NCBI GenBank assembly: GCA_017554455.1
Contig: JAFZIH010000105.1
Location: forward strand, 1 to 32,848
DNA length: 32,848 nt
DNA from: Clostridia bacterium
GTDB taxonomy: Bacteria; Bacillota; Clostridia; Christensenellales; CAG-138
Direction of reading: 5' to 3'
This document shows positions 2,912-25,620 of this stretch, one piece after another (positions within the stretch are counted from its first letter, which is position 1; every line of letters begins with the position of its first letter). The position numbers and the translations under genes are program-made. The notes under the pieces are model-generated. The model did not search any database. It was not told the DNA's origin and worked only from the letters and a program-made list of their open reading frames with translations.

Positions 2912-3023
2912 ACCGTGCCTCCCGTATCTTTGTATATACCTATTGTAACGGGCGGCGCTTCCTTCTGTCAAGCAAAAGCCGCGTCGATCCGCTTTTCTGC
3001 CGTCCGTTCACAATTCGGACACA

Positions 3024-3112
3024 CTATCCACGCTCCTTTTCCACCTTATCCACAAAGTTATCCACAATCCACGTATTTATGGGCGTTTCAAAGGCGGTGT
3101 GCATGTGGATAA
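3024..3112. promoter_or_regulatory. Cluster of DnaA boxes
   Basis: Three perfect 9-mers of TTATCCACA: 3046-3054 (+), 3058-3066 (+) and 3104-3112 (reverse strand, read as TGTGGATAA). A 7/9 match, CTATCCACG, lies at 3024-3032, and a weaker 6/9 match at 3065-3073. The first two perfect boxes are 12 bp apart in the same orientation. DnaA is the replication initiator, and clusters like this occur at origins, titration sites and DnaA-controlled promoters. With no adjacent dnaA/dnaN and no clear AT-rich unwinding element, a DnaA titration or regulatory cluster is more likely than oriC. Confidence 0.7.
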
Positions 3113-3181
3113 GCGCGTCCGCGAGCGTCATTTTTGCGCACTTCGGCTCGGCCGTTTGTCGGTTTTCGGCGAAAAAACTCT

Positions 3182-3209
3182 TTTCAAACGATGCGGAACA
3201 TGGTATTCT
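3182..3209 (+). promoter_or_regulatory. Possible extended -10 promoter of the LRR protein gene
   Basis: TGGTATTCT (3201-3209) is an extended -10. A poor -35, TTTCAA (3182-3187), lies 16 bp upstream. The predicted start of transcription is about 35 nt before the start codon. Confidence 0.35.
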
Positions 3210-3252
3210 GTATATGGAGAAAAATGCGCGATCGCGCAAGAGGGAGGAGCTT

Positions 3253-4515
3253 ATGGAACAGACGTCCGGAAATCCGAAAAAAACGGGAAAAAGCGGCGTG
3301 CCGGTCTGGGTGGTGATCGCACTTGTCTGCGTGATCGCTGCAATGGCGGTATCGTTCTGCCTGATCCTGCTGCCGCGCTGCTATACGATCAGCTGCGAAA
3401 AGGTCGGCGATCCGTCTGCGGAGGCGACAGCCGTTGTTGAATTGCCGACGCAGGCGCCGGATACGCCCGTGCCGGCGGCCACGGAAGCGCCCGCACTGAC
3501 GCCCGAACCCACCGAGGAAACGACCGTGACCGTCACCGATATGCCGACGCCGGAACCCACCGAAGTACCGACGCCGGAACCTACCGAAGAGCCGACGCCG
3601 GAACCCACCGAAGAACCGACGCCTACCCCGACGCCGACGCCCACCCCGACGCCGACGCCCACCCCGACGCCGACGCCCACCCCGTCGCCGACCCCTGTGC
3701 CGGAATATTTCATGTTCGGCGGCAAGAAGGTCAAGTCCGGGTCGAAGATTCTGAGAGGCAAGGACCTCGGCATTGACGGAAAGAGCGGCAGCCAGAAACA
3801 CATTCCTCCGGAAGATGTTGAAAATCTGGTCCTTCTGTGCCCGGATCTTGAGGAGTTCGAGCTTGATTACTGTAGCTTACAGGATTATGCGCTGCTCGGC
3901 AAGCTCACCAAACTGCAGCGGTTGGAGCTGCAAAGCTGCGGCGCGGGCGACGGGAACCCGATTACGGACATCAGCTGGGTCAAGGGGCTGACGGCGCTGA
4001 ACCATCTGAGCTTTGTGCACAACAAAGTCAGCGATACGGCCCCGCTCGAAGGACTGATCAATCTGACGTATCTGAATATGGGGGACAATCCGCTGACGAA
4101 CAAATCCCTTGAGCCGATCGGAAAGCTGACGAACCTGAAGGAGCTCTATCTGTACAGCATCAGCGACGTCTCGGACGTCACGCCGCTCGGCAATCTGACA
4201 AAGCTGACGTATCTGCACCTCGGAAAAATGAAGAAGCTGGAAAACGTCAAGCCGCTGACGGCGCTTACCAAGCTTGAAAAGCTGCGCATTCACAAAACCA
4301 AGGTAAAAGATCTGACAGGTTTCGGCAAGCTTACCGCGCTGAAAAAGCTGGATCTGAGCGGTCTGAAGATCAAAACGAGCACGATCTCCGAGCTGAAGGG
4401 CTGCAAAAAGCTCGAAACGGTCGTCATTGAAATGGGCGACGTCGACACCTACAACGCGGTTCTCGATCAGCTGATCAACAAGGGATATCCGGTCCATTTC
4501 TCCTATAAGTGGTAA
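3253..4515 (+). CDS. Membrane-anchored leucine-rich-repeat protein with Pro/Thr linker
   Basis: A 420-residue extracytoplasmic protein. A short cytoplasmic basic N-terminus precedes a membrane helix (about residues 16-38). A low-complexity linker (about 60-150) is built of PTEEPTPE and TPTPTP units, and an internalin-like leucine-rich-repeat domain (about 185-400) has repeated units of the LTKLxxLxLxxxxxxDxxPL type. A short C-terminal cap ends at HFSYKW. Such domains usually bind protein ligands; the partner is unknown. The start at 3253 is preferred because GGGAGGAG stands just upstream. An in-frame ATG at 3214 would add 13 residues but lacks an SD. The linker DNA carries exact tandem repeats, so its length could vary. 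The gene stands alone and is followed by a strong terminator. Confidence 0.85.
   Translation: MEQTSGNPKKTGKSGVPVWVVIALVCVIAAMAVSFCLILLPRCYTISCEKVGDPSAEATAVVELPTQAPDTPVPAATEAPALTPEPTEETTVTVTDMPTPEPTEVPTPEPTEEPTPEPTEEPTPTPTPTPTPTPTPTPTPTPTPSPTPVPEYFMFGGKKVKSGSKILRGKDLGIDGKSGSQKHIPPEDVENLVLLCPDLEEFELDYCSLQDYALLGKLTKLQRLELQSCGAGDGNPITDISWVKGLTALNHLSFVHNKVSDTAPLEGLINLTYLNMGDNPLTNKSLEPIGKLTNLKELYLYSISDVSDVTPLGNLTKLTYLHLGKMKKLENVKPLTALTKLEKLRIHKTKVKDLTGFGKLTALKKLDLSGLKIKTSTISELKGCKKLETVVIEMGDVDTYNAVLDQLINKGYPVHFSYKW
3540..3690 (+). repeat. Tandem repeats encoding the PT-rich linker
   Basis: Imperfect 24-nt units encoding TPEPTEEP run through about 3540-3625. They are followed by three identical 18-nt units at 3631-3648, 3649-3666 and 3667-3684, encoding TPTPTP. 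Both unit lengths are multiples of three, so slippage would change linker length without breaking the frame. Confidence 0.85.
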
Positions 4516-4743: not shown

Positions 4744-5523
4744 TCAGCCGGCTTTCTTGCTTTGTTCTTCCATCAGGAGCTTGTCCGCGACCAGCGCGAT
4801 GAACTCGCCGTTCGTCGGCTTGTCGTTCTTGCCGTAGATGTTGTAGCCGAAGAGCGCGTTCAGGTTTTCGATCTTGCCGCGCGTCCAGGCGACCTCGATC
4901 GAGTGGCGGATCGCGCGCTCCACCTTGCTTGCTGAGGTGTTGAACTTCTTTGCAATGCCGGGATAGAGTTCCTTGGTGATGCGGTTGATCAGCGTCGGGT
5001 CCTCGTAGACCATGCGGATGCCTTCGCGCAGGTAATGATAGCCCTTGATGTGCGCGGGGATCCCGGCGACGAGAAAGATCGCCGTCACCTTTTCGTCAAA
5101 GGACTTCGGCGCCTGCTGATACGAGAGCACGCCGCCCTTTGCGCGGTCGTTTTCCAGCATGTCGAGCGCGCGCTTCAAGAGCGTTTCCGGCTCGATCGGC
5201 TTTACCATAAAATAGCGTGCGCCGAGCGTGCAGCAGCGGCGGACCATCGTTTCGTTGCGGAGCGCGGAGATCACGATCACCGCCGGCGCGGCGGCGCCCG
5301 CGATCGCCGGAAGCTGTTCCAAAACCGTCAGTCCGTCGGTGTTCGGCATAATGAGATCGAGCGTCATAAGATCGTAATGCCTGTCCTTCAAACGCTCGAG
5401 CGCTTCGCGTCCGTCCGCGGCCGTGTCGACCTCTCCGATGCGTTCCTCCGTCAAAAGATACCCTTTCATAAGATCGGTGAAGCGCGTGTCGTCGTCCACC
5501 AGCAGGATCCGAAGTTTCGTCAT
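4744..5523 (-). CDS. spo0A: Sporulation master regulator Spo0A
   Basis: A 259-residue response regulator that, when phosphorylated, switches on entry into sporulation. The receiver domain (1-125) has the acidic pocket DDD (10-12), phospho-acceptor D56 in LDLIMP, and K108 in MVKP. After a linker, the C-terminal DNA-binding domain (about 145-255) contains the family hallmarks GIPAHIKGYHYLREGI, SKVERAIRHSIEVAW and KPTNGEFIALVADKL. The length is normal for Spo0A. ATG 5523 has GGGAGG 7 nt upstream. The usual neighbour spoIVB is absent; the upstream gene is hsp20, closed off by a terminator, so spo0A is probably transcribed alone. This is the strongest evidence in the window that the organism forms endospores. 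Confidence 0.97.
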   Translation of the reverse strand: MTKLRILLVDDDTRFTDLMKGYLLTEERIGEVDTAADGREALERLKDRHYDLMTLDLIMPNTDGLTVLEQLPAIAGAAAPAVIVISALRNETMVRRCCTLGARYFMVKPIEPETLLKRALDMLENDRAKGGVLSYQQAPKSFDEKVTAIFLVAGIPAHIKGYHYLREGIRMVYEDPTLINRITKELYPGIAKKFNTSASKVERAIRHSIEVAWTRGKIENLNALFGYNIYGKNDKPTNGEFIALVADKLLMEEQSKKAG

Positions 5524-23848: not shown

Positions 23849-23876
23849 AGAGCTGCCGCGTGCAGCTCTTTTTTTT
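23849..23876 (+). terminator. Rho-independent terminator of the glycogen operon
   Basis: AGAGCTGC-CGCGT-GCAGCTCT followed by T8. The last T is also the first base of parS1. Confidence 0.9.
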
Positions 23877-23891
23877 GTTTCACGTGAAACA
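23876..23891. promoter_or_regulatory. parS: parS site 1 (perfect)
   Basis: TGTTTCACGTGAAACA, identical to the B. subtilis parS consensus 16-mer. It is where ParB loads on DNA to form the partition complex. It starts on the last base of the glgA terminator tract, 109 bp before parA. Confidence 0.97.
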
Positions 23892-23913
23892 GTCATATGA
23901 ATGTGTGCAAAAG

Positions 23914-23929
23914 TGTTTCCCGTGAAACA
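23914..23929. promoter_or_regulatory. parS: parS site 2 (one mismatch)
   Basis: TGTTTCCCGTGAAACA, one base off the consensus, 38 bp from site 1. It lies just upstream of the parA promoter, so ParB bound here could also affect parAB transcription. Confidence 0.88.
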
Positions 23930-23999: not shown

Positions 24000-24773
24000 A
24001 TGGAAAAAATTATTTCAATTACAAATCAAAAAGGCGGCGTCGGAAAGACGACGACCGCGATCAATCTGAGCGCGTGCGTGGCGCAAACGGGGAAACACGT
24101 GCTGCTCGTTGATCTGGATCCACAGGGAAACAGCACGAGCGGACTCGGCGTGACGAAGAAAAAAGAGATGTCGACAAGTTATGACGTGCTGATCGACGAC
24201 TTACCCGCACAGGAAGCGATCCGACATACGATGATCGAAACGTTGGACGTGCTGCCGTCGCGTATCGAGCTTGCCGGCGCGGAAGTCGAACTGGTCTCCA
24301 TGATGGCGCGGGAACAGCGTCTGAAGCAGGCGCTTGCGCCGATCGCGGACAGCTACGATTATATTTTCATCGACTGTCCCCCGTCACTCGGACTTTTGAC
24401 GCTGAACGCGCTGACCGCATCCGATTCGCTCCTCGTGCCGATCCAATGCGAATACTACGCGCTGGAGGGACTTTCGCAGCTGATGAACACAGTCAAGCTT
24501 GTACGGCGCAACCTGAACAACAAACTCGACATTGAAGGCGTCGTACTGACGATGTTCTCGTCACGTCTGAACCTTTGCGTGCAGGTCGTCGAAGAAGTCA
24601 AGAAATATTTCCGCGAGAAAGTCTACAACACGATCATCCCGCGTTCGGTGCGCATGAGCGAAGCGCCGAGCCACGGTCTGCCGATCACGCTGTACGATCC
24701 GCGCAACATCGGTGCAAAGGCATACACCAACTTAGCGGAAGAATTTATCAAACGGGAGGAAGCAAATGGCTAA
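24000..24773 (+). CDS. parA: Chromosome-partitioning ATPase ParA (Soj)
   Basis: A 257-residue Walker-type ATPase that binds the nucleoid as an ATP dimer and works with ParB-parS in chromosome segregation. In Firmicutes, Soj also controls DnaA and thereby initiation and sporulation. The deviant Walker A is KGGVGKTT (11-18). [16 protein letters not shown] carries the Walker A' aspartate, and the Walker B region is [11 protein letters not shown]. The short N-terminus, without an HTH, marks the chromosomal type (type Ib-like length), not the plasmid type Ia. The ATG at 24000 follows AAAAGGAG. It overlaps parB by 8 bp. Confidence 0.97.
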
Positions 24774-25620
24774 AAACAAAGGCCTCGGGCGCGGGCTTGA
24801 TGCGCTTCTGGACGAGATCGATGCGCCGGAACAGGCGCAGAACGGCAAGTTCGAAGTCGATCTTTACGATATTGACACGAATCCGAATCAGCCGCGCAAG
24901 ACGTTCGACCCGGAAAAGCTTGCCGAGCTCGCGCAGTCGATCAAGCGTCACGGCGTCGTACAGCCGATCCTGGTCAAGAAAAACGGCGCACGCTATACGA
25001 TCGTCGCCGGCGAGCGCCGCTACCGCGCAGCGCGTCAGGCGGGTCTGATGACGGTACCGGTTGTGTTGACCGACATCGACGAAGACGCGGTCATGGAGAT
25101 CTCGCTCGTCGAAAACATTCAGCGCGAGAATCTGAACCCGATCGAGGAAGCCGCCGCGATCAAGCTTCTCATGCAGCAGCACGACCTCACGCAGGAGGAA
25201 GTTTCCGAGCGTGTCGGTAAATCCCGTCCCGCGATCGCAAACGCGCTGCGTCTGCTCACGCTTGCGAAGTCCGTACAGAAGCTGATCAAGGACGGACGCC
25301 TTTCCGCAGGACACGGAAAGATGCTTGCGGGCGTCGGCGATCCGCGTGTGCAGATGGAAATGGCGGAAAAATGCGTCGAGAGCGACTGGTCGGTACGCCG
25401 TCTCGAGGACGAGTTGCGCTTTGCAGAAATGCCGAAACGCCGCCGCAAAGAGAAGCCGGAACCGACGCCGGAATTCCGCAACGCCATGCACCGAATGCGC
25501 GCCGAGCTCGGCACGAAAGTCTCCGTGCAGGGCAGCGAGGACAAGGGCAAACTGATCATCCATTACTATACACGTGAGGATCTCGACAGGATCTATCATG
25601 TCATTGTCGGAAACGAATAA
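24766..25620 (+). CDS. parB: Chromosome-partitioning protein ParB (Spo0J)
   Basis: A 284-residue parS-binding CTPase clamp. The N-terminal [11 protein letters not shown] (about 5-15) is the ParA-stimulating segment. The CTP-binding domain has GERRYRA (82-88) and [14 protein letters not shown] (116-129). The central HTH that reads parS is about 142-163 ([20 protein letters not shown]), and the C-terminal dimer domain (about 235-284) ends the protein. Length is normal for Spo0J. It overlaps parA by 8 bp and has GGGAGGA upstream, so the two are co-translated. Its targets are the two parS sites 840-890 bp upstream. The usual oriC neighbours gidB/mnmG are not beside it. Confidence 0.97.

Follow-up and report, generated by a model that had tools for sequence, protein, structure and literature searches.

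To our knowledge, studies of DnaA-box clusters outside the replication origin cover few bacteria and say little about how such clusters persist in evolution. In Escherichia coli, the DARS loci release ADP from DnaA by means of a core of three boxes in a defined order; we know of no DARS-like activity in Firmicutes. Clostridial origins are usually bipartite, pairing boxes clustered upstream of dnaA (oriC1) with an unwinding site in the dnaA-dnaN spacer (oriC2). The extra-oriC clusters of Bacillus subtilis (Okumura 2012) have been reviewed (PMC5295017), and an in vitro map of DnaA binding is available (PMC4447404). In this species, the removal of six DnaA-box clusters led to early initiation, which was partially relieved when one of them was restored (PMC5295017).

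The window analysed here is a stretch of 32,848 nucleotides that makes up the entire contig C91 of a 2.29-Mb assembly of 166 contigs (G000). It contains an array of DnaA boxes, element A, whose conserved whole spans positions 3021-3115 (+ strand) as a match to the sequence model R1 described below. Within its own genome this match scores 92.2 bits, with an E of 3.6e-26, the model having been built partly from this copy. A weak outer box (CTATCCACG, 3024-3032, +), kept in most of the genus, is followed by box a (TTTTCCACC, 3037-3045, +), which is invariant in an eight-genome alignment and reads TTWTCCACA in other genera. Three exact TTATCCACA boxes complete the array: box b (3046-3054, +) 9 bp after a, box c (3058-3066, +) 12 bp after b, and the inverted box d (3104-3112, - strand) 46 bp after c, across a spacer with conserved T-runs (GTATTTATGGGCGTTT, 3067-3103) whose length differs by about one helical turn between genera. 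On one side, an aldo-keto reductase gene with a 4Fe-4S domain (1799-2911, - strand), identified by Pfam PF00248, by its orthologues and by a Shine-Dalgarno sequence read at its start, has its ATG at 2911, while on the other side an LRR protein gene (3253-4515, +) has its ATG at 3253. As these two starts flank the cluster, element A is non-coding; it falls within the intergenic region 2912-3252 and precedes the reductase start by about 110 bp. Beyond the LRR gene, spo0A (4744-5523, - strand; Pfam PF08769 and PF00072), the family-wide neighbour of A, reads towards the array.

The exact 9-mer occurs seven times in the full 2.29-Mb assembly, three of them in element A, and 6.7 occurrences are expected per genome from a first-order Markov estimate. 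With a simple model of that order, the expected number of exact-box triples spanning no more than 67 bp is about 1e-7 per genome. A search of the assembly for the exact two-box pattern gave a single occurrence, and none for the reversed pattern, and among six origin-region contig stretches scanned, element A alone holds at least three near-perfect boxes within 120 bp. Several boxes are clustered here beyond chance in non-coding DNA. This agrees with the earlier note, which had described three exact boxes (two direct, 12 bp apart, and one inverted) with two weaker ones between the reductase and LRR genes, and had judged the triple very unlikely to arise by chance.

The same box array, with starts 12 and 46 bp apart, lies upstream of reductase orthologues in five members of the genus (G003, G006, G004, G010 and G013), and it is found with other flanks in G001 and G016; those relatives that carry a name are rumen and omasum assemblies labelled Clostridia. 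The sequence-only model R1, built from eight genus copies and used with an E cut-off of 1e-3, matched in 76 of 103 family genomes (E up to 1e-3) and had no match in the other 27. The best 16 matches, from 15 genus genomes, have E < 1e-11, the eight genomes that built the model not being independent in score. Matches in other genera, with E from 1e-7 to 1e-3, are independent of the model and weak; a few of them belong to another type of cluster, in which the fourth box is direct. Alignment by eye and by script gave a family pattern of TTWTCCACN, followed at +9 bp by TTRTCCACA, at +12 bp by TTATCCACN and then usually by an inverted box. The a-b-c steps of 9 and 12 bp are fixed across genera, and the c-to-d distances fall into classes of 35-37, 45-49 or 57 bp, that is, in steps of about one helical turn. 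The 10-12 bp periodicity of these distances was matched by none of 20,000 uniform-placement draws, in a test on 23 distinct genus-distance values (two of them, 22 and 23 bp, from poor matches) that partly removes the effect of relatedness, related genomes not being independent. Additionally, the strict a-b-c pattern is rare, occurring in 15 of 297 genomes of the order, with none for the reversed control. Sequence comparison thus confirms element A as a conserved array that is family-wide in a group of uncultured gut Clostridia. It is extremely improbable that A is a chance cluster or a decaying remnant with no present role. The inverted box d is not present in every copy, having been lost in G012 and G008:C71, as decay would predict, but boxes and spacing are otherwise invariant where the flanks have diverged beyond alignment, and the array recurs in at least ten genera.

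Like the extra-oriC clusters of B. subtilis, element A consists of several DnaA boxes in non-coding DNA outside the likely oriC, and some of those clusters are near oriC and some between converging genes (gcp-ydiF), as are copies of A. Unlike the B. subtilis clusters, A has one defined a-b-c-d geometry kept across many genera, and none of the eight strongest B. subtilis regions is listed beside spo0A; the likeness is drawn with no claim of orthology. E. coli datA resembles A in its fixed-spacing DnaA boxes with a bendable stretch between them, in its non-coding position and in its proposed negative effect on initiation. However, datA has an IHF site between its boxes, depends on IHF and stimulates DnaA to hydrolyse ATP, whereas no IHF site is defined at A, and no homology is claimed. 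E. coli DARS1 and DARS2 share with A a three-DnaA-box core with conserved spacing, a comparison that does not extend to box order letter by letter. The DARS loci act by increasing DnaA-ATP, with IHF and Fis taking part at DARS2.

The best explanation, with a probability of roughly 0.58, is that element A binds DnaA outside oriC and, by holding it at a cluster of boxes, restrains initiation. DnaA would bind boxes a, b and c side by side and, across the bendable T-rich spacer, would reach box d on the same helix face, giving a compact DnaA complex. Where A lies near the origin it would be copied early, and the DnaA held there would leave less free DnaA at oriC; re-initiation would in turn be restrained, as with the DnaA-box clusters of B. 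subtilis and datA of E. coli. Against this, one or two such clusters may hold a small share of the cellular DnaA, and 27 of the 103 family genomes had no match. The earlier note had favoured a titration or regulatory cluster. A regulatory or titration-type cluster is indeed the most that can be read here, and titration itself, like DnaA binding, the compact complex and the effect on initiation, is what we infer.

In the dnaA-dnaN spacer of 18 genus genomes, a conserved box array is accompanied by a DnaA-trio-like tract (CTACTNNTACNACTNCT-like), and the spacer matches the oriC2 layout of Clostridioides difficile (PMC7561715). The statement on the trio rests on the dnaA-dnaN alignment together with near-canonical tracts in G017, G018 and G005. 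A triplet count, which is unable to separate degenerate trio tracts from background, gave at most 3/6 in 67 of 70 A loci and in 16 of 18 dnaA-dnaN spacers, with scores of 5-6/6 among the spacers in G017 and G018 only. At A, no trio-like tract was seen by inspection, the CTACTNNTACNACTNCT-like tract appearing only in the dnaA-dnaN alignment. In addition, the cumulative GC skew reaches its minimum at dnaA, and not at A, in G003, G006 and G010; in G118 the skew is weak, with no clear turn. Given the box array and trio-like tract in the spacer and the skew turn at dnaA, A would not be needed as an unwinding site, and A as oriC itself is disfavoured on the same grounds. These features suggest that oriC likely lies in the dnaA-dnaN spacer and that A is probably not an origin, as the earlier note had also held.

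The dnaA gene of the window genome is found on a separate 3.5-kb contig. Collinearity of this contig, C141 and the window with G003:C9, in which A is 23-24 kb from dnaA, suggests that the distance in the window genome is also about 24 kb and that A lies outside the likely oriC by this much. Two parS sites (23876-23929), one exact at 23876 and one with a single mismatch at 23914, stand just before parA (from 24000) and parB (from 24766), which together occupy 24000-25620 (+), consistent with an origin-proximal region. The window parS and parA adjoin glycogen genes instead of the usual oriC gene block. An origin-proximal place, with parABS 21 kb away, had been proposed before: the parABS genes and sites are present, and the proximity stands for the window organism but not as a rule for the family. 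A and dnaA share a contig in 16 genomes; the distance between them is 76 kb in G033 and 1.5-26 kb in the other 15. In G118, A lies in a 300-kb contig that lacks dnaA, with over 100 kb of sequence on each side. Constant origin proximity was accordingly rejected as a general feature of A. Since A is off the dnaA contig, and possibly far from the origin, in some genera (G118), early copying of a DnaA-holding cluster could not apply everywhere.

The same distances bear on another proposal, in which A would be one half of a bipartite origin that has moved away and would make up, by looping over kilobases, for boxes lost upstream of dnaA. Like the clostridial bipartite oriC (C. difficile oriC1/oriC2), A is a box cluster that may act with a dnaA-dnaN unwinding site, and in C. 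difficile the unwinding of oriC2 in vitro depends on oriC1 (PMC7561715). Boxes upstream of dnaA are almost absent in the genus, and 28 of the 31 family genomes scanned have only 0-1 near-perfect boxes there, compared with 2-4 in five genomes from other families of the order; the 1.5-26 kb range seen in 15 genomes would also suit such a role. This proposal is nevertheless unlikely. In contrast to the bipartite oriC of C. difficile, A lacks a trio-like tract and does not lie upstream of dnaA, and its distance from dnaA runs from 1.5 kb to unlinked contigs. Looping across distances such as that in G033, or from deep inside the 300-kb contig of G118, would be unlike known bipartite origins, and two g21 genomes carry both A and a cluster upstream of dnaA. 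It is more doubtful still that the family has a split origin in which the cluster upstream of dnaA was lost and A, beyond spo0A, became a remote second half; if true, this would tie replication initiation to the locus of the sporulation master gene. In most of the g25 and g9 genomes scanned, there are no near-perfect boxes on either side of dnaA (dnaA upstream regions L273-L300).

The 3' end of spo0A faces A at 37 of 69 family loci, in a single orientation throughout and within 0.19-0.51 kb at 32 of them. With three further genomes found from the spo0A side (G035, G086 and G088), this arrangement is seen in 40 genomes of ten genera (g1, g3, g7, g9, g12, g13, g14, g15, g21 and g25), related genomes being counted as separate. 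Such constancy would suit a coupling of replication to sporulation, in which DnaA bound past the spo0A 3' end alters spo0A expression, for example through an antisense promoter or blocked read-through, and cross-talk between DnaA and sporulation occurs in B. subtilis via sda (PMC4447404). However, A is kept in G026 (98% complete), which has no Spo0A match, and in G010, G012, G021, G031 and G126 it is separated from spo0A, its distance from dnaA being 1.5-10 kb; where spo0A sits elsewhere, A is near dnaN or parAB, absent linkage being weak evidence in such fragmented genomes. Furthermore, the LRR gene separates A from spo0A in the window, and no such cluster was found at 30 Spo0A 3' flanks from other orders of the class. 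Within the order, at least two boxes were found at 3 of 30 Spo0A 3' flanks, one of these belonging to the family member G034, and with so few loci in the order and none among the 30 outside it, a deeply conserved link to spo0A was rejected. Titration alone does not explain the constant adjacency and orientation, but plain inheritance of one ancestral site would give both, and coupling to sporulation is quite unlikely. The earlier note had asked whether the boxes are kept between the same genes: they remain beside the reductase in close relatives, but family-wide the usual neighbour is the spo0A 3' end.

On the other side of A the neighbour varies, being the 5' end of the reductase or SipL gene or the 3' end of dnaN or a peptidase gene. 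Several B. subtilis genes are regulated by DnaA (PMC4447404), and A could similarly be an operator through which DnaA represses or activates an adjacent gene, either the reductase or LRR gene in the window or a sipL-like gene elsewhere. Its position shortly before the reductase start would allow this, as would its place in g3, g7, g9, g12 and g21, where a SipL-type gene follows about 150-200 bp downstream (in g21 and g12, Pfam confirmed the SipL domain). Yet the neighbours change while A stays, and in G009, G118 and g25 the genes on both sides of A converge, an arrangement in which a promoter would not be expected, making an operator very unlikely. The reductase adjoins A in several other genus members but not in the remaining family, which rules out a reductase-gene operator as the general role. 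Together, the variable neighbours and the retention of A without spo0A favour a role in DnaA binding as such, rather than in the control of a particular gene.

As a candidate DnaA-holding cluster, element A is an array with a defined box order and helical phasing that can be traced in ten or more genera of uncultured gut Clostridia despite moves, the loss of its neighbour gene and the loss of boxes. It provides a concrete DNA target for asking whether initiation in Clostridia is held back by DnaA clusters, and its place beside spo0A calls for an explanation.

A second conserved cluster, B (TTTCCACACCGTCCACACAGTTATCCACA ... GTTATCCACC, last box direct), is present at L012:5395-5470 (G000:C141), with copies at G003:C9:26446, G010:C48:36924, G007:C18:17281 and G013:C8:22210. 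In four genus genomes its distance from dnaA is about 9-13 kb, its flanking AT-rich motifs are highly conserved, and a similar direct-box type occurs in genus g9. Between A and spo0A, a non-coding stretch (ACGTGAAAGATCGC ... TTTCACGGATTATGAGGTTGGGGCATTCCTG) is shared by G001, G004, G006, G013 and G016. Two order genomes, G049 and G078, have two-box clusters near a Spo0A-domain gene, as judged from coordinates only. G054:C313 (L417), which belongs to another family, carries the a-b-c core about 290 bp ahead of a gene resembling the SipL-type gene, with no spo0A within the 1.5 kb examined. The a-b-c core is also found within about 130-800 bp of a tsaD/gcp-like gene, identified by sequence, in G085:C43 (L418) and G329:C83 (L416), a location that, by analogy with the gcp-ydiF cluster of B. 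subtilis, may possibly reflect deep conservation.
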